Below, in pieces: positions 26,701 to 40,729 of a stretch of DNA of 50,318 nucleotides; position 1 is the first letter of the stretch, and the number at the start of each line of letters is the position of its first letter. A model generated the notes under the pieces. The model worked only from the letters and a program-made list of their open reading frames with translations. It was not told where the DNA came from and did not search any database. The position numbers and the translations under genes were made by a program. Where the stretch lies: the IMG/VR virus record IMGVR_UViG_3300035670_000311, positions 1 through 50,318 of that record. One strand, 5' to 3'. Source of the DNA: a virus.

Positions 26701-26896
26701 TCTGAAAAAAGGTACAACTGTTGCACTTAAAGGTCGAGTTCCGGTTAAAGTTGTTGGACCGGTGAAAAAAGGAGAACCTTTAGGTCTAAGTAATGTTCCA
26801 GGGTTTGCAAAAGTTAATACTGAAAAATATTTTGCGATCTCATTAGAAAACAAAAAAGACAATGAAGAAGGAGTGGTTGAAGCTGTAATTTTATAA
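23726..26896 (+). CDS. Long tail fibre with alanine heptads and C-terminal G2-like domain
   Basis: 1056 residues. Residues about 20-360 are beta-rich with short tandem repeats (ATITDASITDASITNASI around residue 280). A shared beta module appears near residues 375-460 (FVLNANTGTNKDASVVNERV) and again near 680-755 (LRIADNVITLNADF; NAGFEVNRG). Between and around them lie heptads Ala-Asn-x-Ala-Phe/Tyr-x-x, likely a trimeric coiled coil. The last about 120 residues (YADLAEKYLADAEYDEGTVL then LGVVSLRPAYLMNSDLKKGT) resemble the intramolecular chaperone/peptidase G2-type ends of phage fibres, which help folding and may be cleaved off. Likely a receptor-binding fibre. The modification cluster starts 4 bases later. 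Confidence 0.8.
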   Translation: MTINIITRTNTIDEWRIETNKAGILLNNLETGDFTKTAGKFEFTNDSTLVLSSEGTSLTVANNALIGQNLSIGKSVTIGTTGSGVGNVTVGGTVYLTGPGYSANVSNNVIIHKNAVVVGNAFSENATVNANAYVGNNVTVAGTVLLTKTGVVMQAENGDVILNHADLVSANLEIANVDFIYALDATIDNLRDIATARIGIVTANDIISYNITSDNSFSDVGIIPTFTSNTLATIENLEANNATINTSALLETTITNAYVDYAEVEILVANVSSTNTATILDATITDASITDASITNASITTGGITTLSATNATILSGNVVSLTSNNALLNNSTTNAATILRATISTANISSALNVDNGLLTIGRVSSTDDALVVRNGIIRTKDSVVEGNLTVSGSFTQTGNINFEIDRFVLNANTGTNKDASVVNERVTGNDAVILWSEANERWEISTGNTWSSTYKILDGADIYDGIDSQSSTKVASANAVYTAYVQGGVVAFARANAAYQQANTPSERANSSYVHANAAFNQANSAFNKANTNATNITINGTFANAAFLKANSGNVLAQAAFDAANNAYNVGGQVAFARANAAFEVANTVYAGLAGTHVNSAFAVANTALVNSATNRLIAESGSNFANAAFDRANSSYAKANSAGNFANGAFDRANASFIRANNSLDRTTGGTITGDLVITGGLSVAGGTSINAQQLRIADNVITLNADFTTGTPSENAGFEVNRGVSNAILQWTETGSPTSSKWQFGTVGNLQNIVGQTDLNTTLGNYVLKSGSTMTGALILHDSPTVSSPGLQAATKAYVDTAVDNAGSGLPATPVDASIPGTYYYLSVTTGGAYWKQFTTSAGNYPINIGGNAATADYATDAGHADSADTATSAGSINSGGNSLSSSGFNITAGSFTVSRPATFTSTITGSTINATTFNGSFVGNLSGTASSARYADLAEKYLADAEYDEGTVLAVGGRKEVTAAKDTHFRALGVVSLRPAYLMNSDLKKGTTVALKGRVPVKVVGPVKKGEPLGLSNVPGFAKVNTEKYFAISLENKKDNEEGVVEAVIL
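24570..24650 (+). repeat. Short tandem repeat in tail fibre (T-x-A-S-I)
   Basis: About five copies of a 15-18 base unit encode ATITDASITDASITNASIT. The five-residue rhythm suggests beta-helix turns and is a likely site of copy-number change. Confidence 0.7.
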
Positions 26897-26900
26897 GAAA

Positions 26901-27371
26901 ATGAACATTGAAGAATTTGAGAATTTCATACAAAATGATTTAGTTTATGATGAATGTTTGATATCGATAATAGACGATCTAGGTAGGCAGATATATCTAG
27001 ATCGTCTTGGTGATTTATATAAACATCAAAAAAATACGATCAAGGTTGAGGGACTTGAAAAATACAACGAGTCTCTCTTTTTAAAATGTCAAGAGTTGGG
27101 TAAAAGATATAATCACTTTGGCCCAATTACCTGCCACGCTTTTCGTGGTTTTAATTCTTCCCATTCTTTTCCACTACATACTGATCCAGATGATATACTA
27201 TTGTATATGGTTTATGGTGAAAAGAAAATTATAATAAATGATAAAGAAGTATCGCTTAAAGAGGGTGATGAAATTTTTATTCCTGCAAACACAAAACACA
27301 AAGCAATTTATACGGGCGATTCTTTAATGTTAAGTTTTGGTTTGGAAAAATTTTTAGTTGATAAATTATGA
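26901..27371 (+). CDS. Cupin/JmjC-like oxygenase, first gene of the modification cluster
   Basis: 156 residues. The C-terminal half is a cupin barrel: SFPLHTDPDDILLYMVYGEK carries H93-x-D95, and IPANTKHKAIYTGD supplies H133, giving the HxD...H metal triad of Fe(II)/2-oxoglutarate oxygenases. The phrase LHTDPDD followed by a glycine-lysine segment resembles JmjC/cupin-4 proteins, some of which hydroxylate protein Arg or His. No arginine for 2OG binding can be assigned with certainty. It overlaps the radical SAM gene by ATGA, so the two are probably made together. It lies before the internal late promoter. Substrate is unknown; a plain metal-binding cupin is an alternative. Confidence 0.65.
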   Translation: MNIEEFENFIQNDLVYDECLISIIDDLGRQIYLDRLGDLYKHQKNTIKVEGLEKYNESLFLKCQELGKRYNHFGPITCHAFRGFNSSHSFPLHTDPDDILLYMVYGEKKIIINDKEVSLKEGDEIFIPANTKHKAIYTGDSLMLSFGLEKFLVDKL

Positions 27372-28402
27372 ATTATTCTTTCTATTTGAAAACGACCGAA
27401 ACGTGCAATTTGAATTGTAAACACTGTTTCACGAACGGCATCAATGGCCCAAAAATTTATTGGGACTATAAAAAAGTCACTGATTGGATAAAAAGGTTTA
27501 CAGAAGTTAATACTGGCACATTACATTGTGAGTTTCACGGTGGAGAACCATTTCTCGCACCACTTGAACAGATGCAATATGTTTGGAATGAATGTAAAGA
27601 TTTGTGGCCAAACATTTCTTGGGGCGTAACAACAAATTTAGTTTTTAAGTTAACACCAGAACATGTTGATTTTATCAAAGGACCCCTTGGTGGTAGAATT
27701 GGCACATCTTGGGACCCAAAGATAAGATTCGATAACGAAAAACAATCTGATCTTTGGTTAAGAAATGTAAAATTTCTTTTAAGTGAAGGTGTTGTAATAA
27801 AATTATTCGTAAGTGTAACTAAAGATACAGTTAATATAGAACCTATACATTTATTATCTTGGCTGAAAGAATTGGGAGTTCAAGAAGTTTCTTTTGAACG
27901 ACTAACAGGTAACGGAAGTGCAAATAAACATCCTGAAATATTTCCAACAAATATTGAACAGGATCAATGGTTTCTAAAAATGCACAAACAATCAGAACAA
28001 TATGAAGCTAGACACTGGTTCGAAAATGAATTTTTGGAAACGGTTTATGATAAATTCGAAAAAAATTTTCTAGCCGGAGGTACTTTTTGCCGAGATTGTG
28101 AAGAAAAGTTGTTTACAATTAACGCAGACGGATCAATTTCTGGATGTCCAAATGCAGCACCAGAATTTCAATTTGGACATATTAACGACAATATAATCGA
28201 TCTTTTAAATAGTCCTAAAAGAATAGAAAATATAGTATGTGAGAGAAGTCGTGACGCAAGATGCCTTTCATGTGAAGTCTTTGAGTATTGTGGTGGTGAC
28301 TGCCATCAATTAGAATGGCAAGGAGACATTTGTGGTGCACCAAAAAGTTTAATGAAATATCTTAAAGGCGATAAAAAAGTTTGGTTTTTTAAGTCTGTTT
28401 AG
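27368..28402 (+). CDS. Radical SAM protein with SPASM-like C-terminus (rSAM 1)
   Basis: 344 residues. The [4Fe-4S] motif CNLNCKHC has C13, C17 and C20 (CxxxCxxC), and HGGEP at 57-61 is the usual SAM-contacting GGE/P motif. The C-terminal third is Cys-rich: CRDCEE, SGCPNAA, ARCLSCEVFEYCGGDCHQLE and a final DICGAPK, the pattern of a SPASM/auxiliary-cluster domain found in peptide- and protein-modifying radical SAM enzymes. It is the last gene before the candidate substrate, which starts 38 bases downstream. This is the enzyme I would first suspect of acting on the Cys-His repeats. The exact chemistry cannot be read from the sequence. Confidence 0.88.
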   Translation: MNYSFYLKTTETCNLNCKHCFTNGINGPKIYWDYKKVTDWIKRFTEVNTGTLHCEFHGGEPFLAPLEQMQYVWNECKDLWPNISWGVTTNLVFKLTPEHVDFIKGPLGGRIGTSWDPKIRFDNEKQSDLWLRNVKFLLSEGVVIKLFVSVTKDTVNIEPIHLLSWLKELGVQEVSFERLTGNGSANKHPEIFPTNIEQDQWFLKMHKQSEQYEARHWFENEFLETVYDKFEKNFLAGGTFCRDCEEKLFTINADGSISGCPNAAPEFQFGHINDNIIDLLNSPKRIENIVCERSRDARCLSCEVFEYCGGDCHQLEWQGDICGAPKSLMKYLKGDKKVWFFKSV

Positions 28403-28405
28403 TTG

Positions 28406-28413
28406 TATAAATA
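28406..28413 (+). promoter_or_regulatory. T4-type late promoter TATAAATA in front of the candidate substrate
   Basis: A perfect TATAAATA lies 28 bases before the start codon, in the only real intergenic gap of the cluster (28403-28440). An expected transcript would begin about 6-8 bases later and carry a leader with the AAAGGA ribosome site (28426-28431). It gives the candidate substrate its own late, high-level expression. Confidence 0.8.
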
Positions 28414-28440
28414 GCATATAAAACGAAAGGATATTTAAAA

Positions 28441-29028
28441 ATGGCAATCGCTTCAGGAAGTATAATTGATGACCAAGACGTATATAACAGAGTTAATTCT
28501 GTAATATCGTCTTATGCAAATTCTGGAATAGTTTATGGAACAAACAATTATCATTTTTCCGACATGCCGGCCGAATTTAAAACCGCATATGAAGGTACGA
28601 CCAGTGGTATTCCACTTTCTAATTACGGAAATTTTAGTGGACAGATCATTGAAGCTCGAGCTGGCGGAACAAATCCTATAGTAGATTATATCATGGTTGT
28701 AGGCATAGTTTATTGTAGAATCAGAAAAGTTGCAGTTAAAAGAATCGTCACAGCAAGTAATGGAAAATTACCAACAGATGAAACTAGAACCGGCGTGAGT
28801 TATATGAAAGATACTTACGCTTCTTATTATTCTAATGGATTTCCCGAACCATCATCTGGTTCAAACATATCTTCTGGAAATGTAATACGAGCAAGCGACT
28901 TAATTAATTTTATAGACGCAGTTAAAAATCAATATGCAAATCTTAGAGATGTAGTGTTTGAAGCGGAATATAGTGTTTGCCATAACTCATGTCATCAAAG
29001 CTGTCATGGATCAAGAGGAAGAAGATAA
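28441..29028 (+). CDS. Candidate modified virion protein with C-terminal Cys-His-x-Ser repeats
   Basis: 195 residues. The body (1-175) looks like a small phage structural or adhesin domain rich in Ser/Gly/Tyr/Asn (GTNNYHFSDMPAEFKTAYEG; YGNFSGQIIEARAGGTNPIV) and ends with a helix IRASDLINFIDAVKNQY of the kind seen in fibre proteins. The last 16 residues are CHNSCHQSCHGSRGRR: three exact four-residue repeats C-H-x-S (C180, C184, C188; H181, H185, H189) and a basic tail. Only one other Cys (C92) and one other His (H38) occur. It has its own late promoter and a strong ribosome site, as expected for an abundant protein. Surrounded by radical SAM and oxygenase genes, it is the best candidate substrate. 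An alternative is that the CH repeats simply bind metal. Confidence 0.8.
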   Translation: MAIASGSIIDDQDVYNRVNSVISSYANSGIVYGTNNYHFSDMPAEFKTAYEGTTSGIPLSNYGNFSGQIIEARAGGTNPIVDYIMVVGIVYCRIRKVAVKRIVTASNGKLPTDETRTGVSYMKDTYASYYSNGFPEPSSGSNISSGNVIRASDLINFIDAVKNQYANLRDVVFEAEYSVCHNSCHQSCHGSRGRR

Positions 29029-29030
29029 TT

Positions 29031-29708
29031 ATGAACATTATTGAAAGTATTGTACCTATAAGTATCGAAAATTTAAAATCTTATTTTTCTAATAAAGATC
29101 AAACGTTTCTTATAGACTACGATAAGAGTGAAATTAAAGGTGAAAAATTTTTAATATATCTATCGAATTTAGATTTGCCATGTAATGTTAAATTGGATAT
29201 TTCTAAAGAAGAACATAGAGAATTATTGAAATATTATTTCACAACAAAAAATATCGTTAATATACCTTCTTTGGAAATAACTGCACTGCACGTTTGTTTG
29301 GATTACAAATATAATTTGGAAAGTTTGAGCCGACAATTCATTTCTGAAAATGAAGATTTGGTGAAAAGTTGGTTGAGTGTTTTAGAAAGTTTAACACTAT
29401 ACAATTTTTATTGTATTAACTCGAAAAAATTTAAAGAACATGTCACTTCACATGAACATGCTGATTGCTCGAATATAGGTCTAAACTTTGTAAATTTAAT
29501 AAAGTATGATGATTTTCAATATGTAGTTACAAACATAAAAAAAGAAAATTTAAAATACTATGAAAGTTTTTTCAATGACTACATGTTCAAAGGAAATAAT
29601 TTGTATCGATATTGGGCCACAGAAGAAAATAATCTATTCTTAATTACTTGGAAAATTATTCATGATGTAGAAAATCAAAAGGAAAAAGAAAATGTTGCAT
29701 CTGTTTAA
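29031..29708 (+). CDS. Unknown protein directly behind the candidate substrate
   Basis: 225 residues from the ATG at 29031, supported by AGAGGAAGAAG upstream; a longer frame would begin inside the previous gene. I do not recognise a family. It is acidic, helical and rich in Lys/Asn/Phe/Tyr, with two features: HVCLDYKYNLESLSRQFISE near residue 85 and HVTSHEHADCSNIGLNFVNL near residue 140, a His/Asp/Cys cluster that could bind metal. The gap to the substrate gene is only 2 bases. A partner, chaperone or recognition protein for the substrate is possible but not shown. It overlaps the next gene by 17 bases. Confidence 0.7.
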   Translation: MNIIESIVPISIENLKSYFSNKDQTFLIDYDKSEIKGEKFLIYLSNLDLPCNVKLDISKEEHRELLKYYFTTKNIVNIPSLEITALHVCLDYKYNLESLSRQFISENEDLVKSWLSVLESLTLYNFYCINSKKFKEHVTSHEHADCSNIGLNFVNLIKYDDFQYVVTNIKKENLKYYESFFNDYMFKGNNLYRYWATEENNLFLITWKIIHDVENQKEKENVASV

Positions 29709-30765
29709 TAAAATTTATATCGATCAAGATAAATTTTTAAGTAATAGTGTAAAGTACATAAAAATAACGGATGCTTATTCGTTTGAGGGTGTGGAATTTC
29801 ATGAAAATAAAGTATCTTCTTATTCTAACTATTATGATTTCATAGAAGGAGAAGGAAGTTTAGGAGATTTTTTTGAAAAATTATTAGCAAAAGAAGAAAA
29901 AATTATTATTTACGCGGACAATTTTTCTTTCGCTAAAATAATTACTTTTTGGTATAAATCTATAACGAATATGGATAAAGCTTCTTTTTCATTTTTCATA
30001 GATTGTTATGAACATAAAATGGATGTTTATAGTAAGACGAATACTCAAACAATAGAACTTTCCAAAACATTTTGGGAAGAAGCTGAGACTAAAGATTTTT
30101 CTGGCTTTAGTTTTAGGCCACCATATGAATTCAATTTTCCTACTTGTCTAATAGATAGGAATTCAAAATACATAGAAATTTTCAAAAAAACATTATTGTC
30201 TTTCATTAAGAGAGATTATGAACTGTTAATTTTAGAAGCAAGAAAACATTTAGACACTTACATATTAAATTATGACATACAAAAATTATTAGGTGGCGAA
30301 AATAAAGGTATAAAAAATTATAAAGAATTACCTAGATTTTCGGTGTATTCTGAACCTTATTGGAAAGAAATCGTAAGTGTACCAACATTTGCAAGTTATC
30401 AGCCAGGTTCAGATTCTAAAATTGATTTGTCTCTAACAACAAAAGAACAAATCAAACAGCTTTGTTTATTGACTGATGAAATAAATTTGGAAATCATGAA
30501 TGAAAAAGGTTCGCCTGGTGCAACAGGAATTTCCAGTCCAAAATTAGACAATAATAATTGGAAATACATTGATGCTATTTTGAGGGGCGGTTTAACTGAC
30601 GAAGAAACGGACACCCTAATACAAGAAATCTTAGATGAAAAAATTGCTTTAATTTATACTCCATTTGACCTTAGAGAAAGTATATTGTTTGTTTTTTTAG
30701 TTTATGTGAAGTCTCTAATCAAACAAGGCAACTTAGAAGAGGCTAAAAAATTCACACTTAAATGA
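29692..30765 (+). CDS. Unknown cluster protein (357 residues)
   Basis: No family recognised. The N-terminal part (IIIYADNFSFAKIITFWYKS near residue 75) looks like an alpha/beta fold; the middle is helical; a Gly/Pro-rich segment MNEKGSPGATGISSPKLDNN near residue 270 is unusual for this cluster; the C-terminus is a helical region with RESILFVFLVYVKSL. Few cysteines and no clear catalytic motif. RBS AAAGGAAAAAGAAA precedes the start, and the 3' end overlaps the next oxygenase as ATGA. Its size and place suggest a scaffold or peptide-binding partner, which is only a guess. Confidence 0.65.
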   Translation: MLHLFNKIYIDQDKFLSNSVKYIKITDAYSFEGVEFHENKVSSYSNYYDFIEGEGSLGDFFEKLLAKEEKIIIYADNFSFAKIITFWYKSITNMDKASFSFFIDCYEHKMDVYSKTNTQTIELSKTFWEEAETKDFSGFSFRPPYEFNFPTCLIDRNSKYIEIFKKTLLSFIKRDYELLILEARKHLDTYILNYDIQKLLGGENKGIKNYKELPRFSVYSEPYWKEIVSVPTFASYQPGSDSKIDLSLTTKEQIKQLCLLTDEINLEIMNEKGSPGATGISSPKLDNNNWKYIDAILRGGLTDEETDTLIQEILDEKIALIYTPFDLRESILFVFLVYVKSLIKQGNLEEAKKFTLK

Positions 30766-31385
30766 TTTTTTGTCCTTTTTATAATAAAATATTAATCAAA
30801 GATTATTCTTTTTCTGATTCGTGGAATGAAGAATTGATAACGACTTTAAAATATTTGTCATTAGAAAAGGACAAATATTGCGGTCATACAGAAAAGTTAG
30901 AAGAAAATTATGAGTTATTAAAGTATGATGAACAAAAAAATGATAAACCTTACATTGTAACAGAAAAAAATTCTCATAGTTTTCCTATAATAAAAACTCT
31001 TAGGAATTTATTTTTAGAATGCTTCCACGAATATAATAATTCTTTTGAAGAAAAAATTGATAATATTGATAAAATATTTCTTAAAGATGAAGGTAACTTA
31101 GCAACATTAAAATATGGCCAACGAGTGGGGTTACACCAACATCCATCCTATTGTTTTGCTATATTTTATCTTACAGACGTAGACAATGAAAAAGATGGAG
31201 GTGAATTGGTTCTTTTAGATCCTTCCTTCAATACGCAAAATAATTTCTGTTCTGCAAAAGAATATAAAGTAAAAACTAAAAAAAATAGGATGGTTGTAGC
31301 ATCATCTTACATATGGCATGAAGTGACTCCTTATTATGGAAAAAAAGAAAGACTTTGTGCCGTTATAGATTTGGGTAGAAAATGA
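30762..31385 (+). CDS. 2OG-Fe(II)-oxygenase-like protein, HxH type (Oxy 1)
   Basis: 207 residues. The C-terminal half has the double-stranded beta-helix pattern: GLHQHPSYCFAIFYLTDVDN (H125-x-H127), GGELVLLDPSF, then SSYIWHEVTPYYGKKERLCA with distal H186 and R197 as possible 2OG ligand. The pattern resembles the TIGR02466/P4H-like oxygenases common in cyanophages. The first metal position reads H-x-H instead of H-x-D, so the metal triad is atypical. It is a close relative of the gene at 32065. Starts and stops overlap neighbours by ATGA. Confidence 0.72.
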   Translation: MIFCPFYNKILIKDYSFSDSWNEELITTLKYLSLEKDKYCGHTEKLEENYELLKYDEQKNDKPYIVTEKNSHSFPIIKTLRNLFLECFHEYNNSFEEKIDNIDKIFLKDEGNLATLKYGQRVGLHQHPSYCFAIFYLTDVDNEKDGGELVLLDPSFNTQNNFCSAKEYKVKTKKNRMVVASSYIWHEVTPYYGKKERLCAVIDLGRK

Positions 31386-32068
31386 AAAAGATGTTAGTTT
31401 GTGGAACTAGTTTTTCAGACAAATCAAGAAATCCAAAAATAAAAAAATGGCCAGAAATATTGTCTGAAAAAATAAATTTCGAATTGAAAAATATTTCAAG
31501 TAGTGGTATATCAAATAGAACCATATTCAATAATATTTTTGTCGAAATTGAAAAAGAAAAATATGATTTAATTGTGGTTTCTTGGTCTTATTCTTTAAAG
31601 ACAAATATTTTTAATGCATTAGAATTAAATTTTATCAATATTGATGAGAGTGGTGACAAATTCGAAAAACAAATTTCAGAAAAAATATCAAAACAAATTT
31701 TACAAAATGAGGAAAAAATACTAAAAGCTTTTGAAGATACTTTAATATCTATTTGCCTATTACAAAATTTATGTGAGAATAGAGGAATAATGCTCATTCA
31801 TTATCCACTACTAAATATATTTCACCTGAAAGAAAAGAACCCATCAATTTTAAGTAAAATAAAGGAAAATTATTTTTTCAAAAAAATTTCTAAATTTGAA
31901 AATATTTTAGGTTGGCCATGTGATGATAGTTTAAATGGGTATTCTTATAATATGAAGTATAAAGGATTGACAATATCAAAATTAGATAGACATCCTAACT
32001 CTATTGGCCAAGAATTAGTATCTCAAGAATTGTATGAATTTTATGAAAAATTAAGGAATAAAAAATGA
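31382..32068 (+). CDS. SGNH/GDSL-hydrolase-like protein
   Basis: 228 residues. Features of the SGNH fold: an N-terminal strand ending in LVCGTSFSD with candidate nucleophile S10; SSGISNRTIFNNIF (40-53) with Gly and Asn in the oxyanion positions; VVSWSY at 65-70; and a C-terminal LDRHPNSIGQELVSQELYEF with D202 and H204 in the block V position. Such proteins are esterases or acyltransferases; in phages, related proteins act on glycans or fibre decoration. Within this cluster it may add or remove an acyl group on the modified product, an inference. ATGA overlaps on both sides. Confidence 0.65.
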   Translation: MKKMLVCGTSFSDKSRNPKIKKWPEILSEKINFELKNISSSGISNRTIFNNIFVEIEKEKYDLIVVSWSYSLKTNIFNALELNFINIDESGDKFEKQISEKISKQILQNEEKILKAFEDTLISICLLQNLCENRGIMLIHYPLLNIFHLKEKNPSILSKIKENYFFKKISKFENILGWPCDDSLNGYSYNMKYKGLTISKLDRHPNSIGQELVSQELYEFYEKLRNKK

Positions 32069-32664
32069 TAAAGAACATTTTTCCAGTAAACATATACCTA
32101 AAAGATTCTGTTGTTGAAGAGACCGATCTATTGGAGTTAAATACCGCGGTCAAAACAATTTTCAACAACTATAAAACGAGGACCGGCCACAGTTATTCCG
32201 ATGTTGGTGACAATGAAATTCCTTTTTTCACGAAAGAGAACCTAGAACTTTTTCCAGTATTGAAGAATTTGCAGGAGAAGTTTATTGATGGTTTTTATGA
32301 GTTGGCCAATTCTTTTGAACAGAATACTTTAAGTAGAGAAAAAATAGAACACATGGTCAGCAAAAATAGTGGTAAATTACCTTTGATGAAAAAAGGTGAT
32401 TATAAAAAAACACATAATCATCATGGCGCTTGCGCTTTTGCCGTTTTTTACCTTAGTGATGTCGATAATGATAAACATGGAGGAAAATTAATTTTGAAAG
32501 ATCCTTCATTTCATTCAAATTTAAATTTTCATCCTGTTGAAGAGTGTGAAATAGAAACGAAAAGTAATAGATTAGTTATAGCGCCGGCGTATGTTTGGCA
32601 TGAAGTTAGCCCCTATTTTGGTGACGAAGAAAGAATTACAATAGTTATAAATTTGGATTATTAA
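32065..32664 (+). CDS. 2OG-Fe(II)-oxygenase-like protein, HxH type (Oxy 2)
   Basis: 199 residues, paralogous to Oxy 1: THNHHGACAFAVFYLSDVDN (H117, H119/H120), GGKLILKDPSF, then APAYVWHEVSPYFGDEERIT with H179 and R190. The residues between them align over the whole C-terminal half, including the Asp-Pro-Ser-Phe turn, so the pair arose by duplication. H-x-H instead of H-x-D at the first metal site is shared. Local base composition is slightly less AT-rich than in the flanking genes. It is followed directly by a radical SAM gene (TAAATG). Confidence 0.75.
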   Translation: MIKNIFPVNIYLKDSVVEETDLLELNTAVKTIFNNYKTRTGHSYSDVGDNEIPFFTKENLELFPVLKNLQEKFIDGFYELANSFEQNTLSREKIEHMVSKNSGKLPLMKKGDYKKTHNHHGACAFAVFYLSDVDNDKHGGKLILKDPSFHSNLNFHPVEECEIETKSNRLVIAPAYVWHEVSPYFGDEERITIVINLDY

Positions 32665-33708
32665 ATGATTGATGATGATTTTTTTTATGATGTAATAAAA
32701 GATAAAGTTATAGATTACGTTGAAGTAGTCGTTTTACTTTTTGAGCATTGTAATATGTCTTGCGTTTTTTGTCCTCAAGACCATAACGATTTATTGGGGG
32801 CAACAAGAGAAGAAATTCTAAGTAAATGCCCACAAATCATAAAATTCATAAATGAAAATCCTAAAAAAGATTTTCTTATGCATATTATGGGAGGTGAACT
32901 TTTTCAAGATAAATTTATAAATTCTGGTTTTATAAATTACTATCAAGAATTTATTGATACGATAAAATCAAATGTAAAAGAAGATAAGAATATTACTTTT
33001 CTTTTTGTTACAAATTTAGTTTATGATTGTATAGATGAAGTTGTAGAATTTTGTAAGAAAAATAAATTAAAAATGAATGTTTCTTATGATTTAGCTGGAA
33101 GATTTACTCAACCACAATTGGAAATCTACAAGAAAAATATTGAAAAATTTAAAGAATATGTCAATATAATAAGTTTAGTAATAACTAAACAAAACATAGA
33201 TAAGCTTTTAAAAGGTGACGAATACTTTGATTATCTATATGAAAATTTTATTTGTGATTGGGATAAATTATTACCAGGAAAAAACTTTAATGATGCTTTG
33301 ATGCCAAAACAATCTGAACTTTTTATGTTTTATAAACATCTTGTTGATAAGTATCCAAGGTGTAATAATGTAAAATATTTTACAGATAAAGAACAAAGAC
33401 ATAAAATGTCTTGCACTAGAGGCAGTAGTTACACTATTTTAAATGATAACAGTGTTCCTAAAGGATGTTCAGGTAGTGTTCTATTAAAAGATCCTAAAAC
33501 ACAAGAATTAGGCGGCACAAAAATTATTCAGTTTTTTATGAAAGAACATGATTGTTTTTCATGTGAGTTTTATAGTAGATGTGGTTTCACTTGTTTTATA
33601 AGAAATGATTATAAAAATTTAATAAAAGATATGGATGAGTGCGTGTTCAAAGAAGTTTTTAAGTATGTTGAATCAAAAAATAATATTTCAAAAGAAAATT
33701 CAAACTGA
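32665..33708 (+). CDS. Radical SAM protein with Cys-rich C-terminus (rSAM 2)
   Basis: 347 residues. CNMSCVFC at 29-36 is the CxxxCxxC cluster motif, and MGGEL the GGE motif. The C-terminal region has SCTRGSSYTILNDNSVPKGC, then CFSCEFYSRCGFTCF and DECVF, a SPASM/twitch-like auxiliary cluster set. This kind of enzyme modifies peptides or proteins, for example by forming thioether or C-C crosslinks or epimerising residues. It overlaps the next gene by 44 bases. Substrate unknown; the Cys-His protein is the obvious candidate in the cluster. Confidence 0.85.
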   Translation: MIDDDFFYDVIKDKVIDYVEVVVLLFEHCNMSCVFCPQDHNDLLGATREEILSKCPQIIKFINENPKKDFLMHIMGGELFQDKFINSGFINYYQEFIDTIKSNVKEDKNITFLFVTNLVYDCIDEVVEFCKKNKLKMNVSYDLAGRFTQPQLEIYKKNIEKFKEYVNIISLVITKQNIDKLLKGDEYFDYLYENFICDWDKLLPGKNFNDALMPKQSELFMFYKHLVDKYPRCNNVKYFTDKEQRHKMSCTRGSSYTILNDNSVPKGCSGSVLLKDPKTQELGGTKIIQFFMKEHDCFSCEFYSRCGFTCFIRNDYKNLIKDMDECVFKEVFKYVESKNNISKENSN

Positions 33709-35392
33709 CAAAAGATTAAAAATATCTTTTGTTAATCCTCCTCACGCTGATTGGTCACTATGTAACAATATGACCTTTTTGATGTGTCAAACTCACTATA
33801 ATATTTTTGGTAAATATAAAGAAAATGTTGACTGGATAAAAGCGCCATACAAATGGAATACGTACAAAAGTGTAATGGAAGTATTCCAAGAGCTATCTGA
33901 ATGTGATATTATTATGTTTAGTTCTTATGCTTGGAATTATGGTATAAATGATGATTTAGCCAAGTATATAAAACAAAATTTTCCTCAAAAAATTTGTGTT
34001 TTAGGTGGCCCACATATTGGAACAAATGAACCTAAATTTTTGCAGTCTAGAAAATTTTACGATTTTATTTGTCAACCAACTAAACCTGGTGAACCTTTTA
34101 TCGAAGATTTAATTGATAGTTGGTTTGAAAATAACGGAAAACCTAAAGTTGAAGATATATGTTGGGAATTAAAAAGTTGTAAACAAAAAAAACATGATAT
34201 CGATTCAGAAATTTCTGTTTATGAAGAACACTTGGATTACTTAAAAGAGATGTTACAATATGCAAAAAGTAATAAAATGGAACCTTTCATTGTCTTAGAG
34301 ACAACAAGAGGTTGTCCTTATGGTTGCGTGTTCTGTGAATGGGGTGGTGGAATAGGAACAAAAATTATTAAAAAAAGTGTTGACTTGGTAAAAAGAGACA
34401 TTATGGCTTTAAAGAAGGCCGGTTTCAGAGATGCCTATTTGACTGATGCCAATTTTGGTGCATTTAAAGATAGAGATATAGAAATATTCAAATTTGCTTG
34501 GGAAAATAATTTTAACTTAACTGATATATCTACCGTAAAAATTAAAAATTTGGAAAGAAGAAAACAGTTAATAGACGCTTGGTTTGATGTGGTTGGTAAA
34601 GGACCAGAAAAACATAGCAAAAGTGAAGGTGGAACTGATATGTGGGGAGAAACAGAATATATTTCAGTTGTACCAACTGTTAGTATACAGAGTATCAGTG
34701 AAGAAGCTATGAAAGTTGCCGATAGGACAGATTTATGCACTAAAGATAAAATAGAGTTGAGTAGATACATAAAAGAAAGATGTGAAAACGAAGGGTATCC
34801 TGTTCCAGCTATAGAGTTAATATTAGGAATGCCAGGATCTACAATAGAAGATTTCTATTCTGAGATGGAAATAATATGGAATTTTCAAGCTTGGTCGAGC
34901 TTTAGGCATGATTATATGTTTTTACCAGACAGTAAATTAAACTCTAAAGAATATCGAGAAAAATATAAAATTAAAACCGTTGAAGTTTTTTCAGATATTG
35001 TGGATGAAGACGGTATAGATAATTGGAATAGTCTGTATAAGAATAAAAAAACATATTTTAAAACAATGCAGTCTTGTTATTCCTATACAAAAGAAGAGAT
35101 GCATGAGATGTGGTTTATGAATAACGCAGGTAATTTTTTACTTAAAAATATTTACCCATCTTTGCAATCTTATATTGATCCTAAAAATTTTGGTAAAAAG
35201 TGTTTTAAAATAATTTCTAAATTGGATGATTTTGAAAACATACACAAAGAGATTATAGATATATTTGATGAAAATACTGAACCAAAATCGATTAGAAAAT
35301 TACAAGGAAAATTTAGAACCGAGGTTATAGAAGATATGTTAAAGAAAAATGAAATTATCATAAAAAATGAAATAATGAAAAAAGTATTATGA
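33665..35392 (+). CDS. B12-binding-domain radical SAM protein (rSAM 3)
   Basis: 575 residues from the ATG at 33665; a longer frame reaches 33635 but both starts lie inside the previous gene. Residues 18-150 resemble a cobalamin-binding Rossmann domain (KISFVNPPHADW; ECDIIMFSSYAWNYG; ICVLGGPHIGTNEP). The radical SAM domain follows with ETTRGCPYGCVFCEWGGGIG (C217, C221, C224), and a GMPGSTIEDF motif typical of this class near residue 390. B12-dependent radical SAM enzymes often methylate unactivated carbons, and several act on peptides. Helical C-terminal domain of about 120 residues. It overlaps the next gene by ATGA. Confidence 0.88.
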   Translation: MLNQKIIFQKKIQTDKRLKISFVNPPHADWSLCNNMTFLMCQTHYNIFGKYKENVDWIKAPYKWNTYKSVMEVFQELSECDIIMFSSYAWNYGINDDLAKYIKQNFPQKICVLGGPHIGTNEPKFLQSRKFYDFICQPTKPGEPFIEDLIDSWFENNGKPKVEDICWELKSCKQKKHDIDSEISVYEEHLDYLKEMLQYAKSNKMEPFIVLETTRGCPYGCVFCEWGGGIGTKIIKKSVDLVKRDIMALKKAGFRDAYLTDANFGAFKDRDIEIFKFAWENNFNLTDISTVKIKNLERRKQLIDAWFDVVGKGPEKHSKSEGGTDMWGETEYISVVPTVSIQSISEEAMKVADRTDLCTKDKIELSRYIKERCENEGYPVPAIELILGMPGSTIEDFYSEMEIIWNFQAWSSFRHDYMFLPDSKLNSKEYREKYKIKTVEVFSDIVDEDGIDNWNSLYKNKKTYFKTMQSCYSYTKEEMHEMWFMNNAGNFLLKNIYPSLQSYIDPKNFGKKCFKIISKLDDFENIHKEIIDIFDENTEPKSIRKLQGKFRTEVIEDMLKKNEIIIKNEIMKKVL

Positions 35393-35910
35393 TAAAAGAT
35401 ATTTACACCAAAGGATTTGTAAAATTTAGTGAACCTGAAGCTCTAGATTTAATAAAAATTGATCAGTTCAAACTGATAAATGTTGAAGAAAGAACTAGAG
35501 ACAATGGAGTAAAAGATGTTCCTTTAGAATTGACTAAAAGGATGGAAGCGTTTGCTTTTTATTTAAAAGAAAAATATATTACTCCAGAATGGTCTAATGC
35601 CAAATATAACAAGTTTTTAGTTTGGGATGGTGTTGACAGAGACAATCAAGGTTGGCACACAGACATGTTTGAAGATTACGATGTATTCTTTCTGTATTAT
35701 ATGGACGATACTTTTGAAGAAACAGGAGGAGCTATAAATTTTAAATGGGGGTCTTTAGAAGGATCAGAAGAAACTGCTACATTTCAACCTAAAGCCGGAG
35801 ATTTATTTTTGGTCAGTAACCTCAGAGGTTTTTGGCATAAAGCGGATAGTACAAAAATTGTTAGAAGGGTGGCAAGTTTTGATTTTACAGTAGGGTTAAA
35901 AGATGATTAA
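35389..35910 (+). CDS. 2OG-Fe(II)-oxygenase-like protein, HxD type (Oxy 3)
   Basis: 173 residues. The canonical metal triad is visible: WHTDMFEDYDVFFLYYMDD gives H90 and D92, and FWHKADSTKIVRRVASFDFT gives H150, with R159 or R160 as 2OG ligand. A Gly-Asp-Leu-Phe-Leu-Val strand precedes the distal His. Spacing of all these is the same as in the 169-residue paralogue at 36866. Likely a small hydroxylase acting on a peptide side chain in this cluster. ATGA overlap with the rSAM 3 stop; overlaps the next gene by 8 bases. Confidence 0.82.
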   Translation: MIKDIYTKGFVKFSEPEALDLIKIDQFKLINVEERTRDNGVKDVPLELTKRMEAFAFYLKEKYITPEWSNAKYNKFLVWDGVDRDNQGWHTDMFEDYDVFFLYYMDDTFEETGGAINFKWGSLEGSEETATFQPKAGDLFLVSNLRGFWHKADSTKIVRRVASFDFTVGLKDD

Positions 35911-36202
35911 AGATTTGATTGGAAAAAAAGAAGAACTAATGAAAGAACGTGATCTGTGTGCTGAAATTTATAATATATGGATCACAAAACTTCATGACTA
36001 CCAAAAAGATAAAGAGACATATGAATTGTACATAAAAATGATTAATAATATGGAACCTTATGGTAGCATGTTAAAAGAACAGATACGAGAAATAAACAGA
36101 AAAATATGTGAGATAGAAGGTGTAGATAGTATTGGTGAAACACCTTACGCTAAAGATTGTGATAACAAATATGGATTCGACAAACCAAATTCCAACAATT
36201 GA
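35903..36202 (+). CDS. Small helical coiled-coil protein, unknown
   Basis: 99 residues, nearly all helical and strongly charged: KDLIGKKEELMKERDLCAEI, a middle HDYQKDKETYELYIKMINNM, and EQIREINRKICEIEGVDSIG. It may form a coiled coil. The C-terminus (CDNKYGFDKPNSNN) is disordered and overlaps the next gene by 32 bases. No family recognised. A scaffold or subunit role is possible. Confidence 0.6.
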   Translation: MIKDLIGKKEELMKERDLCAEIYNIWITKLHDYQKDKETYELYIKMINNMEPYGSMLKEQIREINRKICEIEGVDSIGETPYAKDCDNKYGFDKPNSNN

Positions 36203-36875
36203 TCTAATAGAAAAAATTTTATATTATTTGCCTAAAATTGATGAAGAGAACCTTTTTTCAATTTTAAACATAATAAATCAAAGCCAAAAATTTGGAAATT
36301 TTAAAGATAAAAATGTTCCAAATAACAATTTTGAATTGTCTTATGCAAACTATATTGTAACCAAAAATAATTTGTTTTTATTAGAATATGAAAAAGTAGT
36401 TCAAGAAGCTTGCTTTAGAGAATTTATGGAGTGGTACGAGTACCTAACAAAACACATTTTAAGAAAAGATGTGCAAGAAGTTTTAAATATAGAAATAAAT
36501 GAAACTGGAGACTGGGAAATAATTTTTAAACAATCAGATATTATAGGTTGGGCATATCAATTAGAAGACTTAAATATTTTTTTAAAAAATGTTGATAAGG
36601 TTGAAAAAATAGCCAATTTTATGTTTTCATTTTTTAACAAAAGAAAACCTTTAAGTACACTAGACTTAAACTATTTTGAATCAAATCATGCACAATTAGT
36701 TTATGAAAGTATTAAAAAAGTTTTAATAGAAAAAAATATAGAAGAATTACATAAACAAATTTTGAGTGATAAAATTTTATGTATGGTTGAAGTTTATGGT
36801 TGGGAAAATAAATTTAATCCAATACTATTAAATTGGTTTTATGAAAATAAAGAAAAAATTAAGTTATGGATATAA
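36171..36875 (+). CDS. Unknown cluster protein (234 residues)
   Basis: 234 residues from the ATG at 36171; an earlier in-frame start at 36132 is also possible. No family recognised. It is helical and rich in Asn/Lys/Phe/Trp, with aromatic-rich segments EACFREFMEWYEYLTKHILR and GDWEIIFKQSDIIGWAYQLE. In general character it recalls the unknown protein at 29031 (helical, single oligomeric-looking domain, followed by an oxygenase within a gene or two), but I cannot show homology. It overlaps genes on both sides. Confidence 0.6.
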   Translation: MDSTNQIPTIDLIEKILYYLPKIDEENLFSILNIINQSQKFGNFKDKNVPNNNFELSYANYIVTKNNLFLLEYEKVVQEACFREFMEWYEYLTKHILRKDVQEVLNIEINETGDWEIIFKQSDIIGWAYQLEDLNIFLKNVDKVEKIANFMFSFFNKRKPLSTLDLNYFESNHAQLVYESIKKVLIEKNIEELHKQILSDKILCMVEVYGWENKFNPILLNWFYENKEKIKLWI

Positions 36876-37375
36876 AGAATTTTTTTGACAATGGATTTTG
36901 TTCTTTGTTTGATTATGAATTGGCTCAAGAAATAAACTTAAAAACCATCAATTGGAAATATGAAGGTGGAGAAAAAAACGATTTTGTACCAGAAAAAAAT
37001 TCATTTTTAGATGCTGAGTTATTAAATGTTCATATGAAAATAGCGGAAAAATATGTCGATAAATATTTCTCCGAGTATCATGTAAAAAAACGAAGAATAT
37101 GGAAAGGTGTAAATGAAGACGCTACATTTTGGCATAATGATTTAAGGGAAGGACCAAATTGTTTTTTCTTATTGTATTTTTCAAATATGGAAAAAATTAA
37201 TGAGGGAGCCGTATATTTTAAAAGTGGTAAAAAAGAATTCAAAATATATCCTAAACCAGGAACATTAATTGCCGTAAATTGTAGTGAAAATTTTTTCCAC
37301 AAAGCCGACTTTACGGATAAGGAAAGAATACAAGCGTCTTTTTGTTTTGATATAAATTATGGAACTTATAATTAA
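36866..37375 (+). CDS. 2OG-Fe(II)-oxygenase-like protein, HxD type (Oxy 4)
   Basis: 169 residues. FWHNDLREGPNCFFLLYFSN gives H90 and D92; ENFFHKADFTDKERIQASFC gives H145 and R154. The arrangement copies Oxy 3 (H90, D92, then H-K-A-D), so the two are paralogues. Between them lies a PKPGTLIAVN strand-turn. All residues needed for Fe(II) and 2OG binding appear present. Likely side-chain hydroxylase; substrate unknown. Overlaps the previous gene by 10 bases and the next by 17. Confidence 0.82.
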   Translation: MDIKNFFDNGFCSLFDYELAQEINLKTINWKYEGGEKNDFVPEKNSFLDAELLNVHMKIAEKYVDKYFSEYHVKKRRIWKGVNEDATFWHNDLREGPNCFFLLYFSNMEKINEGAVYFKSGKKEFKIYPKPGTLIAVNCSENFFHKADFTDKERIQASFCFDINYGTYN

Positions 37376-38426
37376 ACCTACTGAAAAATGTAACTTTAAA
37401 TGTACATTTTGTTCGAGCACACACATCTCTGAGGATAAAACCGCAGAGTTAGACCATCAAAAAATATTTCAATTTTTAGAAAGATTTCCAGAAACAAATA
37501 CTATTATTGTTAATGGTGGTGACCCATTAATGATGAGTCCAGATTATTACTGGAAAATAATAGATTGGTTAGATAAAAACAATTATAAAACTACCATAAG
37601 TTTAACGACAAATCTTTGGCCATTTTACAAAAACGTGAATAAGTGGAAAGACTTATTTTTAAATGAAAGAATAGGCATAGCAACAAGTTTTCAATATGGT
37701 GGTGGCCGATTAAAGGGTGATTTAACCGAATATACAGAAGAAGATTTCTGGAAAGTAAGTGACTGTATGTTGGAACATATAGGTTATAGGCCAGGATTCA
37801 TTACAGTAATAACAAAAGAAAACGAAAAAGACGCTATAAAAAATGTAGAGTTAGCGCAAAAAATGGACGTTGAATGTAAATTAAATTATGCTTTAAGTTC
37901 TGGACCGCCAGTAAAATTTAAGAATATAATCATGGGCCAACAGGGACAACCATATTTGCTTTCCGATATCTATGAAATTTATGTTGAAATTTATAAAAGA
38001 GGACTTTGGCAATGGGAATACAATACAAAACAAATGATGGTCAGATTAAAAGGTATGCAAACAACATGTCCGCAAAATAGAAGTTGTGATGAAAATATAA
38101 GAACCTTACAACCAGCTGGTGACTATTATAGTTGTGGTGCTTTTGGAGATGACATGTCACATTCAATAAATTTTGATGATGAAATGTCAGGTAAAAAGAT
38201 TTTTATTTTACAACAAGACCAAAATTTATTAAGTTTAAAACAAAGTTGTTTTACTTGTCCAATGTTTCAAATATGCAATGGTTGTAAGAAAACAATAAAA
38301 GATTTGAAAGACCATAATTTAGTTGAAAAACATTGTTTCAAAATGAAAACTTTAGCTAAAGATATAATTGAAATAAATGGTGTTGATTTGGAACCTACTG
38401 AGTACGTTAATGAACATATCAATTAA
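37359..38426 (+). CDS. Radical SAM protein with Cys-rich C-terminus (rSAM 4)
   Basis: 355 residues. KCNFKCTFCSS gives C11, C15 and C18; NGGDP at 52-56 is the SAM-binding motif. The C-terminal part carries TTCPQNRSCDENIRTLQPAG, DYYSCGAFGDD, CFTCPMFQICNGCKKT and KHCFKM, an auxiliary-cluster (SPASM-like) layout. The start at 37359 overlaps the oxygenase Oxy 4 by 17 bases, and the end overlaps rSAM 5 by 17 bases, so Oxy 4, rSAM 4 and rSAM 5 are translated as a coupled set. Confidence 0.87.
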   Translation: MELIIKPTEKCNFKCTFCSSTHISEDKTAELDHQKIFQFLERFPETNTIIVNGGDPLMMSPDYYWKIIDWLDKNNYKTTISLTTNLWPFYKNVNKWKDLFLNERIGIATSFQYGGGRLKGDLTEYTEEDFWKVSDCMLEHIGYRPGFITVITKENEKDAIKNVELAQKMDVECKLNYALSSGPPVKFKNIIMGQQGQPYLLSDIYEIYVEIYKRGLWQWEYNTKQMMVRLKGMQTTCPQNRSCDENIRTLQPAGDYYSCGAFGDDMSHSINFDDEMSGKKIFILQQDQNLLSLKQSCFTCPMFQICNGCKKTIKDLKDHNLVEKHCFKMKTLAKDIIEINGVDLEPTEYVNEHIN

Positions 38427-39327
38427 CCCAACATATTATTGTAATTTTCGATGTCATTTTTGTTACCTAACAAAAAAACAATTAGGTGATAGAAAATTAT
38501 TAAATTTAAATACTTTATTTGATAGACTATCTGAAATAATAATTTATGATAGAATAGAACACATCGATCTGTATGGAGGAGAAATAGGTCTATTACCAGA
38601 AAATTACATAAAAGAGATGAAAGGTATACTTAAAAGATTTGGTGTAAAAAGTATAAACATCAATACGAACTTATCTATGGTAAATGACACTTTGATCGAT
38701 GATGATTTTTATTTGTCCGTTAGTTATGATTTTGATGTAAGAGAACAACATGAAAGAGTTTGGAATAACATGTTTAAATTGGAAAGACCTTTTAGTATAC
38801 TCATGTTAGCCAGTGATAGGTTAGTTGAAAAAAATGTTGATGAAATGATACAACAATTTAACCTGTTAAAAAATCTTCAATCGGTAGAGATAAAACCATA
38901 TAGTTCTAACCAAGCAAATAATTTACAGGTCACATTTTCAGAATTCGAAGATTTTGTTAAAAGGTGGATCACAAGCCCTATTCAAAAAAAATTTGAATTT
39001 ATTAATGAGTATTTGATACAAGACGTAATTACAAAAGAAAGAAACAGTTTTTCTGATGACCATATATACATTACACCAGAAGGAAAATTTGCTGTTTTAG
39101 AATTTGACTTGAATGATAATGAGTATTTTTTACATTGTGAAACATTTGAAGATTATTTAAATTGGTGTGAAAAAGAAAAAAGAAGAGTTGCAAAAAATGA
39201 ATTTTGTTCTTCTTGCGAATATTTTGGTAACTGTTTGTCTGAACATTTACGGGAAGTTAAAGATTTAAAAAATAGTTGCAATGGATTTAAAAATATGATT
39301 GATTGGTATAAAAATGGAAAAATATAA
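38410..39327 (+). CDS. Radical SAM protein with short Cys-rich C-terminus (rSAM 5)
   Basis: 305 residues from the ATG at 38410, just before the stop of rSAM 4; a longer frame to 38377 adds non-conserved residues. YYCNFRCHFCYL gives C11, C15 and C18; LYGGEIG at 54-60 is the GGE motif. The C-terminal FCSSCEYFGNCLSEHLREVK, with a final SCNGF, is a shorter SPASM/twitch-like region than in rSAM 1, 2 and 4. Strong in Lys/Asn/Ile. Overlaps the next oxygenase by 14 bases. Confidence 0.85.
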   Translation: MNISINPTYYCNFRCHFCYLTKKQLGDRKLLNLNTLFDRLSEIIIYDRIEHIDLYGGEIGLLPENYIKEMKGILKRFGVKSININTNLSMVNDTLIDDDFYLSVSYDFDVREQHERVWNNMFKLERPFSILMLASDRLVEKNVDEMIQQFNLLKNLQSVEIKPYSSNQANNLQVTFSEFEDFVKRWITSPIQKKFEFINEYLIQDVITKERNSFSDDHIYITPEGKFAVLEFDLNDNEYFLHCETFEDYLNWCEKEKRRVAKNEFCSSCEYFGNCLSEHLREVKDLKNSCNGFKNMIDWYKNGKI

Positions 39328-39769
39328 AATAGATACCACTCAAAAAATCTTTAATTTTTTAATTGAGATAAATGAAAATAATGTAGTGGAACCCATTAGT
39401 AAAAATAAAAAAAGATTTGAATTGATATTTGAATCTGTTTTAAAATATAAAATAGAAATTAAAAATTCTTGGTTGAATAAAACTTTTTATAACAAAAATA
39501 CTAAGAATGATTTTCCATGGCACAACGAAAAGGGTGTTGGTTATAAAACAGTAACTATGCCAGGAAAATATTCTGGAATTTGTTGGATATCTGGAGAAGA
39601 AAATTGTGGTGGTAGTTTAGATATTTTAAAGTCTGATGGTGAAATAAAAAATATACCTTTTGAAATTGGATCCTTTATTGTTTTCGAAGCCGACGTACTC
39701 CATAGAGTGAATCAGTATTTTGGATCTATTCCTAGAATAAGTTTAAACATAACATTTGACAAAAAATGA
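39314..39769 (+). CDS. 2OG-Fe(II)-oxygenase-like protein, HxE variant (Oxy 5)
   Basis: 151 residues from the ATG at 39314 (an upstream TTG is less likely). FPWHNEKGVGYKTVTMPGKY supplies H70 with E72 in place of Asp; YSGICWISGEENCGGSLDIL follows; then FIVFEADVLHRVNQYFGSIP gives H130 and RISLNITFD gives R141. The C-terminal half fits the double-stranded beta-helix of this superfamily. The H-x-E variant may still bind Fe(II) or may lower activity. ATGA overlap with the next gene. Confidence 0.68.
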   Translation: MEKYKIDTTQKIFNFLIEINENNVVEPISKNKKRFELIFESVLKYKIEIKNSWLNKTFYNKNTKNDFPWHNEKGVGYKTVTMPGKYSGICWISGEENCGGSLDILKSDGEIKNIPFEIGSFIVFEADVLHRVNQYFGSIPRISLNITFDKK

Positions 39770-40179
39770 AAGAATGGCAAATTAGACAGAAAGTCTATCA
39801 CTCATTAAATACAGAGTATGATGACGATTTGAAGACAAAAGAAATAACCATAACTAAAAATATAGTTGAAGATGCAATAAGATATTTTAAAGAGAAAGAT
39901 ATCGGATGGATTTACCCGTCAAAAAGTTATATGGTTGCAATTTGTTATTCCAGATGGTTATCTGAAAATTTTGGTAAAAGACCATTAGAATATTTAAATG
40001 ACGAATCTTTACTATATTATAATGACCCCTATTTTAAAACATATGAGCAAGACACACTAAATTATATTAAAATACTAGAAAATGTTGGTTGGGATTTTGA
40101 TGAAAATTTAGGTATGGTACCTGACGTTAAACAATATTTTTTAAAAGAATTTATGTTAGAGGAAAATTATGCTGACTAA
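39766..40179 (+). CDS. Unknown small cluster protein (137 residues)
   Basis: 137 residues, starting MKEWQIRQKVYHSLNTEYDD. Helical and acidic, aromatic-rich (IGWIYPSKSYMVAICYSRWL; ESLLYYNDPYFKTYEQDTLN). No catalytic motif or known family. It lies between two oxygenase genes and overlaps both (ATGA at its start, 11 bases at its end), so it is part of the coupled operon. Possible oxygenase partner. Confidence 0.6.
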   Translation: MKEWQIRQKVYHSLNTEYDDDLKTKEITITKNIVEDAIRYFKEKDIGWIYPSKSYMVAICYSRWLSENFGKRPLEYLNDESLLYYNDPYFKTYEQDTLNYIKILENVGWDFDENLGMVPDVKQYFLKEFMLEENYAD

Positions 40180-40729
40180 AGGATGGCCAAGTCCTATATT
40201 AATAGACACGATGGAAAACAAAAACTTGGTCGATGAGACTGCAAATTATATATTAAAAACTTATGATTTAAATTTGCCACCGTCTGAAAATAATAAAGAA
40301 AATATCTTTGACGATAAAAATTTGAAAGAATTTAAACAAGAAATAGTAGAACCGGCTTTTGATTCTTGGTTTAAACAAGTCAGAAATCAATCAATATATG
40401 ATTATCGACAGAGAAGTTACACTTCTTGGATAACAAATTTTAACAATGGTTATAGTATGGTTACACATAACCATAATGGATCTCAATTGAGTGCAGTTTT
40501 TTACTTATTGAATGAAGAGTCTGATTTTGGTGGAGAAATAGTTTTTTTTGATCCGAGATCAAATGCAAATAGAGCTTATAATAATAAGATGTGGAAAGAT
40601 TTTTTCGAGCCTTTAGTATTAAAAGTACCTTCATACACCTTTGCTGTTTTTCCTAGTTTTATTTACCATCAGGTTACAAATTTTAGAGGAAAAATTCGCT
40701 TAGCGGTACCAGTAGACCTGTATGTCTGA
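40169..40729 (+). CDS. 2OG-Fe(II)-oxygenase-like protein, HxH type (Oxy 6)
   Basis: 186 residues with GAGGAAAATT before the ATG. SYTSWITNFNNGYSMVTHNH followed by NGSQLSAVFYLLN gives H100 and H102; GGEIVFFDPRS follows; FPSFIYHQVTNFRGKIRLAV gives H167 and R177. This is the TIGR02466-like pattern common in cyanophages next to tail genes, so this last gene may be a general phage gene rather than part of the cluster. It again has H-x-H at the first metal site. The cluster ends here. Confidence 0.78.
   Translation: MLTKGWPSPILIDTMENKNLVDETANYILKTYDLNLPPSENNKENIFDDKNLKEFKQEIVEPAFDSWFKQVRNQSIYDYRQRSYTSWITNFNNGYSMVTHNHNGSQLSAVFYLLNEESDFGGEIVFFDPRSNANRAYNNKMWKDFFEPLVLKVPSYTFAVFPSFIYHQVTNFRGKIRLAVPVDLYV

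Follow-up and report, generated by a model that had tools for sequence, protein, structure and literature searches.

A gene cassette between tail-fibre genes

The stretch of viral DNA analysed here (the window, 50,318 bases in length) is a fragment of a T4-like myovirus, encoding T4-like baseplate proteins, a giant VrlC-like protein (phrog_358) and tail fibres. Positions 26901-40729 are occupied by a cassette of 19 genes, all on the plus strand and mostly overlapping, which is flanked by a fibre gene at 23726-26896 and by fibre-assembly-like and fibre genes from 40780 onward, the position between tail-fibre genes given in a first-pass annotation. The cassette encodes five radical S-adenosylmethionine (radical SAM) enzymes, one cupin/JmjC-like protein, six proteins resembling 2-oxoglutarate (2OG)-Fe(II) oxygenases, three of which exceed the Pfam cut-offs, and one protein ending in repeats of a Cys-His-x-Ser unit (the CHxS protein), which is the proposed substrate of these enzymes.

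The upstream fibre protein (1056 amino acids) has a C-terminal phrog_22593 domain (residues 916-1052, E = 1e-17), related to the Peptidase_G2 autoproteolytic domain. It is followed by the first cassette gene (26901-27371), whose cupin/JmjC-like product passes the Pfam cut-offs for both Cupin_2 (35.9 bits) and JmjC_2 (26.4 bits), confirming its initial assignment, and by rS1 (27368-28402), encoding a radical SAM enzyme with a SPASM domain (TIGR04085, 38.5 bits against a cut-off of 27). Paired with rS1 is the gene for the CHxS protein (28441-29028; 195 amino acids; phrog_35144, E = 1.6e-8, residues 18-195), at the extreme end of which three CHxS units and an RGRR sequence form the invariant tail CHNSCHQSCHGSRGRR (28978-29025), in agreement with the repeats originally noticed there. 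Two conserved genes come next, one encoding p20767 (phrog_20767; 28989-29708), of unassigned function and fold, and the other a protein of unassigned function weakly matching phrog_36207 (29692-30765).

The tail was used as a DNA pattern, CHx[S/T]CHx[S/T]CHxxRxRR with no requirement for a stop codon, to scan 2.9 million viral contigs, giving at least 80 loci. Among the matches listed, the motif was the exact C-terminus of all 97 motif-bearing open reading frames, not counting that of the window itself. The family comprises 139 distinct proteins, in every one of which the three cysteines, three histidines and three arginines are invariant; these residues are fixed by the search pattern for the loci found with it, but the loci gathered through rS1, without the pattern, agree. 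The tail codons vary synonymously, with the first cysteine encoded by TGT in 78 cases and TGC in 57, and the mean frequency of the commonest residue in the alignment is 0.89 in the tail against 0.43 in the body, which is free of cysteine in 107 of the 139 proteins. As judged from these sequences, the tail is a real feature under selection.

In an AlphaFold2 model the body of the CHxS protein is predicted with confidence (mean predicted local distance difference test score, pLDDT, of 83) and its final strand runs into the low-confidence tail. A structure search of the PDB found no match to the body fold, and NCBIfam contained no match to the protein; a library of viral models returned its own relatives, including gp170 of phage Atu_ph07 at 14% identity. 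The same fold also occurs in three proteins of 500-660 amino acids from one uncultured myovirus, Myoviridae sp. ctijX18 (BFVD A0A8S5USJ7, A0A8S5USV2 and A0A8S5USJ8). A direct search of the viral contigs with the CHxS protein yielded no close relatives, because the body diverges fast, while the tail motif and rS1 both succeeded as queries. A second subtype consists of a tandem pair of small CHxS proteins (124-140 amino acids) followed by up to five radical SAM genes of another subgroup (L012, L023, L055, L061 and others), and one 151-kb contig carries both subtypes (L065/L079).

Linkage, distribution and virion context

An independent scan with rS1 identified 80 loci. The CHxS gene lies between -22 and +31 nt from rS1 in 67 of these and slightly further downstream in eight, while the other five end within 250 nt after rS1; the pairing is thus complete in all 75 loci with enough downstream sequence. 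All 54 long loci, those with 9 kb or more of downstream sequence, have p20767 and the 29692 family, accompanied by the further radical SAM genes rS3 (53), rS2 (52) and rS4 (50) and by the conserved protein p20737 (47); the cupin gene lies upstream of rS1 in 44, a B12-binding radical SAM gene is found in 21, and each locus has three to six radical SAM genes. These counts imply a fixed core, to which the oxygenases and the B12-binding enzyme are optional additions. As the synteny is conserved in more than 50 other contigs, a chance arrangement can be excluded.

Searching 50,697 phage records by tblastn, rS1, rS3 and p20767 each returned the identical seven records. The CHxS protein was detected in six of these, and in the seventh, Phosso, its gene adjoins rS1, so all four cassette proteins occur in the same seven isolate phages. 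The carriers include the phiKZ-like Burkholderia phages FLC6, FLC8 and SURPRISE13, Pseudomonas phage pPa_SNUABM_DT01 and the Agrobacterium/Sinorhizobium jumbo phages Atu_ph07 and Phosso. From this distribution, the module evidently moves among distant phage groups with its gene order largely fixed. Two adjacent genes resembling dihydrofolate reductase (DHFR) are found within the Burkholderia phage cassettes (L006:14406-15583, L010:14319-15532).

As a control, 39 viral loci of the same size were matched by an unrelated pattern and contained no in-frame repeat. Any radical SAM gene was present in four of these, compared with 71 of 77 CHxS loci (Fisher p = 5e-19). Even where rS1 does not adjoin the CHxS gene (18 contigs), radical SAM genes were detected in 17 cases and rS1 itself elsewhere on the contig in 14. 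The pattern matched 19 times in 84,980 cellular genomes; a cellular origin was rejected, the cassette-bearing matches being mostly in metagenome-assembled bins and resembling phage contigs, and several other matches having no cassette gene.

Of 76 rS1 loci, 67 have a fibre gene of the phrog_22593 type no more than 4 kb before the cassette, almost always at a distance of 100 nt or less. Atu_ph07 and Phosso also have such a gene upstream; in the phiKZ-like carriers, the gene upstream of the cassette encodes a virion structural protein (phrog_2163). The window has a single copy of the T4-type late-promoter octamer TATAAATA, where shuffled sequences predict 7.6, and this copy (28406-28413, plus strand) lies 27 nt before the start codon of the CHxS gene. 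Of 121 CHxS genes, 25 are preceded by this octamer at a distance of up to 80 nt, which is not the case for any of 89 rS1 or 86 p20767 genes, and near variants of it precede the baseplate and fibre transcription units of the window at 4799, 40780 and 47184. A dedicated late promoter inside an operon of enzymes would fit a protein needed in structural amounts, and by its context the CHxS protein resembles a virion component from the fibre region. Electrospray ionisation tandem mass spectrometry of Atu_ph07 virions has been reported to identify a cluster of virion proteins spanning coding sequences 170-215 (PMC6102473). The CHxS homologue gp170, which contains the stretch CHSSCHASCHNSR, is the edge gene of this cluster, the numbering having been confirmed with the portal protein gp198 and the baseplate genes gp181/182 as reference points.

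Other cysteine-rich tails and the proposed modification

Fifteen T4-like relatives of the window were picked through a baseplate gene, independently of the cassette. One contains the CHxS cassette, five a different radical SAM cluster and nine no such cluster. All six contigs bearing radical SAM genes encode a protein with a cysteine-rich tail adjoining those genes and a fibre of the G2 type, representing four tail types once near duplicates (G028/G029, G036/G039) are considered; neither such a fibre nor a comparable tail was found in the searched region of the other nine, which may be incomplete. The tails other than CHxS are (CTCNCNY)4, a CxCxCNY-like run leading directly into a Peptidase_S74 domain (PF13884, 30.1 bits), and CQxxCQ. 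The first-pass annotation had held that enzymes occurring without the CHxS protein and in unrelated contexts would count against modification of a fibre-associated protein. No rS1 was found to lack a CHxS gene where the contig allows one to be seen, and those sibling clusters without CHxS that were examined follow a fibre gene of the same type and encode another cysteine-rich tail protein, which extends the original idea rather than refuting it. A third tail type, CQRSCQIQCQTACQTSCQGCNTSQCHNQKCGVH, is encoded in a radical SAM cassette behind the same fibre type (L311:5556-6152, L405:12631-13227).

Repeat proteins with the CTCNCNY unit were found by scanning at 41 loci; radical SAM genes are present at 36 of these (mean 3.5), compared with four of the 39 controls (p = 1e-12). 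Of the 47 CTCNCNY proteins, 22 have SDxRLK, with which the S74 chaperone begins, immediately after the repeats, and in 14 others the repeat forms the end of the protein. S74 domains are chaperones of tail fibres and spikes that cleave themselves. With cleavage before the S74 serine, the cysteine-rich tail would again be the mature C-terminus, and the attachment of S74 is a link between such tails and fibre proteins that does not depend on the CHxS family. Together with the dedicated late promoter, this supports the earlier description of the modified protein as fibre-associated. The (CTCNCNY)n family is found on phage proteins of roughly 170-430 amino acids (for example L310:7447-8043, L312:4960-5667 and L313-L392), and some cassettes have three or four tandem, diverged genes with such tails (L335:4721-7282, L351:7389-9443), of which one keeps a complete S74 domain and the others a 12-residue remnant. 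Homology between the bodies of CHxS and CTCNCNY proteins was considered and rejected, as they share only a short helix pattern (I.A..IN.LI) that is not significant.

Among cultured phages, CP220, CPt10, CP21, IBB_35 and others that infect Campylobacter have, close to their tail genes, a gene for a (CTCDCNY)n protein, CPT_0180; in these group II phages it is 534 amino acids long (L409:8001-9605 in CP220, L408:9001-10605 in IBB_35). CP220 and CPt10, which are T4-like, each have 11-12 radical SAM genes. These include an 'interchangeable module' that was left unexplained in 2010, and were read as metabolic with no link made to the repeat protein (PMC2853527). The Campylobacter module differs from that of the window in that the CHxS cassette is absent and a single radical SAM gene is near the repeat gene.

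From the linkage and conservation of these genes, it seems likely that they form swappable cassettes for the post-translational modification of an exposed tail on a fibre-associated protein; both the chemistry and the role in host contact are predictions. The CHxS gene would be expressed from its own late promoter to give a small folded protein that joins the tail or fibre apparatus, leaving its disordered C-terminal tail, CHxSCHxSCHxSRGRR, exposed. SPASM enzymes that mature peptides have an established chemistry, on the basis of which rS1 may act first on the Cys/His/Ser units, the likeliest products being cysteine-centred cross-links or a similar C-H modification. Further changes could then be added by rS2-rS4, the optional B12-binding enzyme, the variable Fe(II)/2OG oxygenases and the cupin. 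This would give a fibre-associated virion protein a rigid tip of unusual chemistry, which would probably serve in contact with the host surface. Related phages appear to exchange the entire cassette, tail and enzymes together, at one site behind a fibre gene, and it is this swapping at a fibre position from which host contact is inferred.

Several observations weigh against this reading. Some loci with tandem small CHxS genes have rS1 elsewhere on the contig, and one 18-kb CHxS contig has no Pfam radical SAM match. The presence of gp170 in Atu_ph07 virions, deduced from the limits of the cluster, is suggested only indirectly, and the same range also takes in the enzymes gp171 and gp172. Furthermore, so many enzymes for one short tail are hard to explain, and some of them may have the fibre or a cofactor as their target.

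An alternative in which the CHxS tail stays unmodified and binds metal as a tip, with Cys/His ligands for iron, zinc or copper as in iron-capped phage spikes, while the radical SAM and oxygenase genes serve some other purpose, is unlikely. The three CH pairs could plausibly supply the ligands, cysteines are rare in the body and the phiKZ-like carriers have a spike or baseplate gene near the cassette; however, rS1 and tail are fully paired whichever of the two is taken as the starting point, other tails are accompanied by other radical SAM sets, and metal binding would not need five such enzymes. That the cassette is an auxiliary metabolic, cofactor or glycan pathway, with the CHxS protein an unrelated neighbour, is most improbable, given that cassette and tail always occur together in unrelated phages, that the tail is conserved on a variable body and that the conserved core has no sugar or cofactor genes. 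A metabolic role is nevertheless the usual reading of phage radical SAM genes, clusters of which, from marine and Campylobacter phages, have appeared in papers since at least 2010 (PMC2853527, PMC8541153, PMC5332604), and is favoured by the two DHFR-like genes in FLC-type cassettes.

Another comparison is with ribosomally synthesised and post-translationally modified peptides (RiPPs). The CHxS protein might be a leader-core precursor whose core is cut free and diffuses to act on hosts or competing phages. Radical SAM/SPASM enzymes, B12-binding radical SAM enzymes and oxygenases are all tools of RiPP maturation, the best named relatives of rS1 are peptide maturases, and the pairing of precursor and maturase genes expected of a RiPP is found at each of the 75 rS1 loci with room for it. 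This explanation is nonetheless very unlikely: family searches recognised no dedicated leader protease or exporter among the cassette proteins (several of which have no assignment), the body is modelled as a confident fold of which the tail is just the final 16 residues, the alternative tails bear a tail-fibre S74 chaperone, and the gene has a late promoter in a fibre context.

Several known maturation systems can be compared with the cassette. As in those of the ranthipeptide maturase PapB, DynA/DarE and TIGR04083, a SPASM enzyme adjoins the gene for a protein with a repeated, cysteine-containing C-terminus. PapB is the best-scoring named equivalog for rS1, at 52.7 bits, yet far below its curated cut-off of 340; anSME (43.8 against 349) and HxsB (36.6 against 370) are similarly distant, and rS1 exceeds the cut-off of none of PapB, DynA, DarE, HxsB or anSME. 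The closest named families, all peptide maturases, being so far below their cut-offs, the exact reaction is not nameable, and in these profile searches no family membership passed beyond radical SAM and SPASM. The substrate here also differs in being a folded phage protein of about 125-300 amino acids, usually accompanied by four radical SAM enzymes and oxygenases.

The His-Xaa-Ser system (HxsA/B/C/D) has two radical SAM enzymes beside a protein with C-terminal HxS repeats, and rS1, rS2 and rS3 give weak HxsB/HxsC matches at around a tenth of the cut-offs. In the CHxS protein, by contrast, a cysteine precedes each HxS and there is no HxsA-type match; no functional characterisation of the Hxs system was found in the open literature searched. 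Proteusins have a folded leader region and are matured by radical SAM, B12-binding radical SAM and oxygenase enzymes, a set that the cassette resembles. The CHxS protein, however, matches no proteusin or nitrile-hydratase/Nif11-like leader in Pfam or NCBIfam, its fold has no PDB counterpart and its tail is short. Radical SAM cassettes in the same genomic position, behind VrlC among the tail-fibre genes, have been noted in a host-recognition cluster of pelagimyophages with neither substrate nor function proposed (PMC7029224).

A literature search that covered open-access papers other than preprints found no description of a conserved multi-enzyme set acting on the C-terminal tail of a fibre-associated phage protein, consistent with the statement in the first-pass annotation that no such phage system was described. 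While radical SAM peptide maturation is known as a kind, this suggests that its proposed use by phages on the tail of a virion protein is new. The original interpretation, modification of a fibre-associated protein, is supported, with the chemistry and host-recognition role standing as inference. For tailed phages in general, the evidence tips slightly towards a common strategy, in which a swappable cassette behind a conserved fibre gene would combine a small fibre-associated protein bearing a cysteine-rich repeat tail (CHxS, CTCNCNY or CQxxC) with matching radical SAM enzymes and oxygenases that rebuild the tail into an unusual, receptor-contacting tip, a RiPP-type maturation on the virion. 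The pairing gives phage radical SAM clusters a concrete candidate substrate, checkable in cultured phages, and a sequence signature by which such systems can be sought. If correct, phages enzymatically build part of their host-contact surface, which would add a new level to the evolution of host range and could supply new chemistry for modifying peptides.

Family assignment of the remaining cassette genes

Exactly five proteins in the window match PF04055. Three exceed the cut-off in the genome search and that at 33635 also passes in hmmscan, making four above it in at least one search, with the weak match at 32665 below; as all five also have the CxxxCxxC motif, the initial count of radical SAM genes stands. 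The CNLNCKHC motif and SPASM cysteines of rS1 are invariant across 34 homologues. The enzyme rS2 (32665-33708), with SPASM-like C-terminal cysteines, matches phrog_1802 (E = 9e-27), while rS3 (37359-38426; PF04055, 43.6 bits) is SPASM-like, falling just below the TIGR04085 cut-off with 25.9 bits. The optional B12-binding radical SAM protein (33635-35392) resembles a KedN5-like methyltransferase, scoring 95 bits against a cut-off of 700 for NF033712 and 24.2 against 32.1 for B12 binding. Of the SPASM and B12 assignments proposed earlier, only the SPASM domain of rS1 exceeds its profile cut-off. The match of rS4 (38377-39327) to PF04055 is 36.2 bits; a viperin-like defence function was rejected for this protein, at 36.6 bits against a cut-off of 180.

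The six oxygenase-like genes of the first-pass annotation divide into two groups. Those at 30762-31385 (PF13640, 35.8 bits), 32065-32664 (PF13759, 41.7 bits) and 40169-40729 (PF13759, 40.4 bits), the last being the final cassette gene and present in 31 of the 54 long cassettes, all exceed a cut-off of 27. The other three are below Pfam cut-offs, but match phage oxygenase-related families and retain the HxD/HxE...H residues: 35389-35910 (phrog_19592, E = 1e-6; PF13640, 23.2 bits; HxD...H), 36866-37375 (phrog_19592, E = 4e-5; HxD...H) and 39299-39769 (phrog_81, E = 4e-7; HxE...H).

For the optional gene at 31382-32068, present in two of the 54 cassettes, the earlier SGNH-like label is the one assignment left unconfirmed, Pfam and phrog searches having given no supporting match. 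Two other optional genes, a small one at 35903-36202 (10 of 54 cassettes) and one at 36132-36875, have no family match, and p20737 (39766-40179; phrog_20737, E = 9e-49) is conserved with its function unassigned. The AlphaFold2 model of p20767 has a pLDDT of 88 and found no match in a PDB structure search; this protein and that encoded at 29692-30765 are candidates for substrate delivery. A single in-frame TAA, which may reflect a sequencing error, a pseudogene or recoding, is present in one rS1 homologue (G017:C1:10799-11806).

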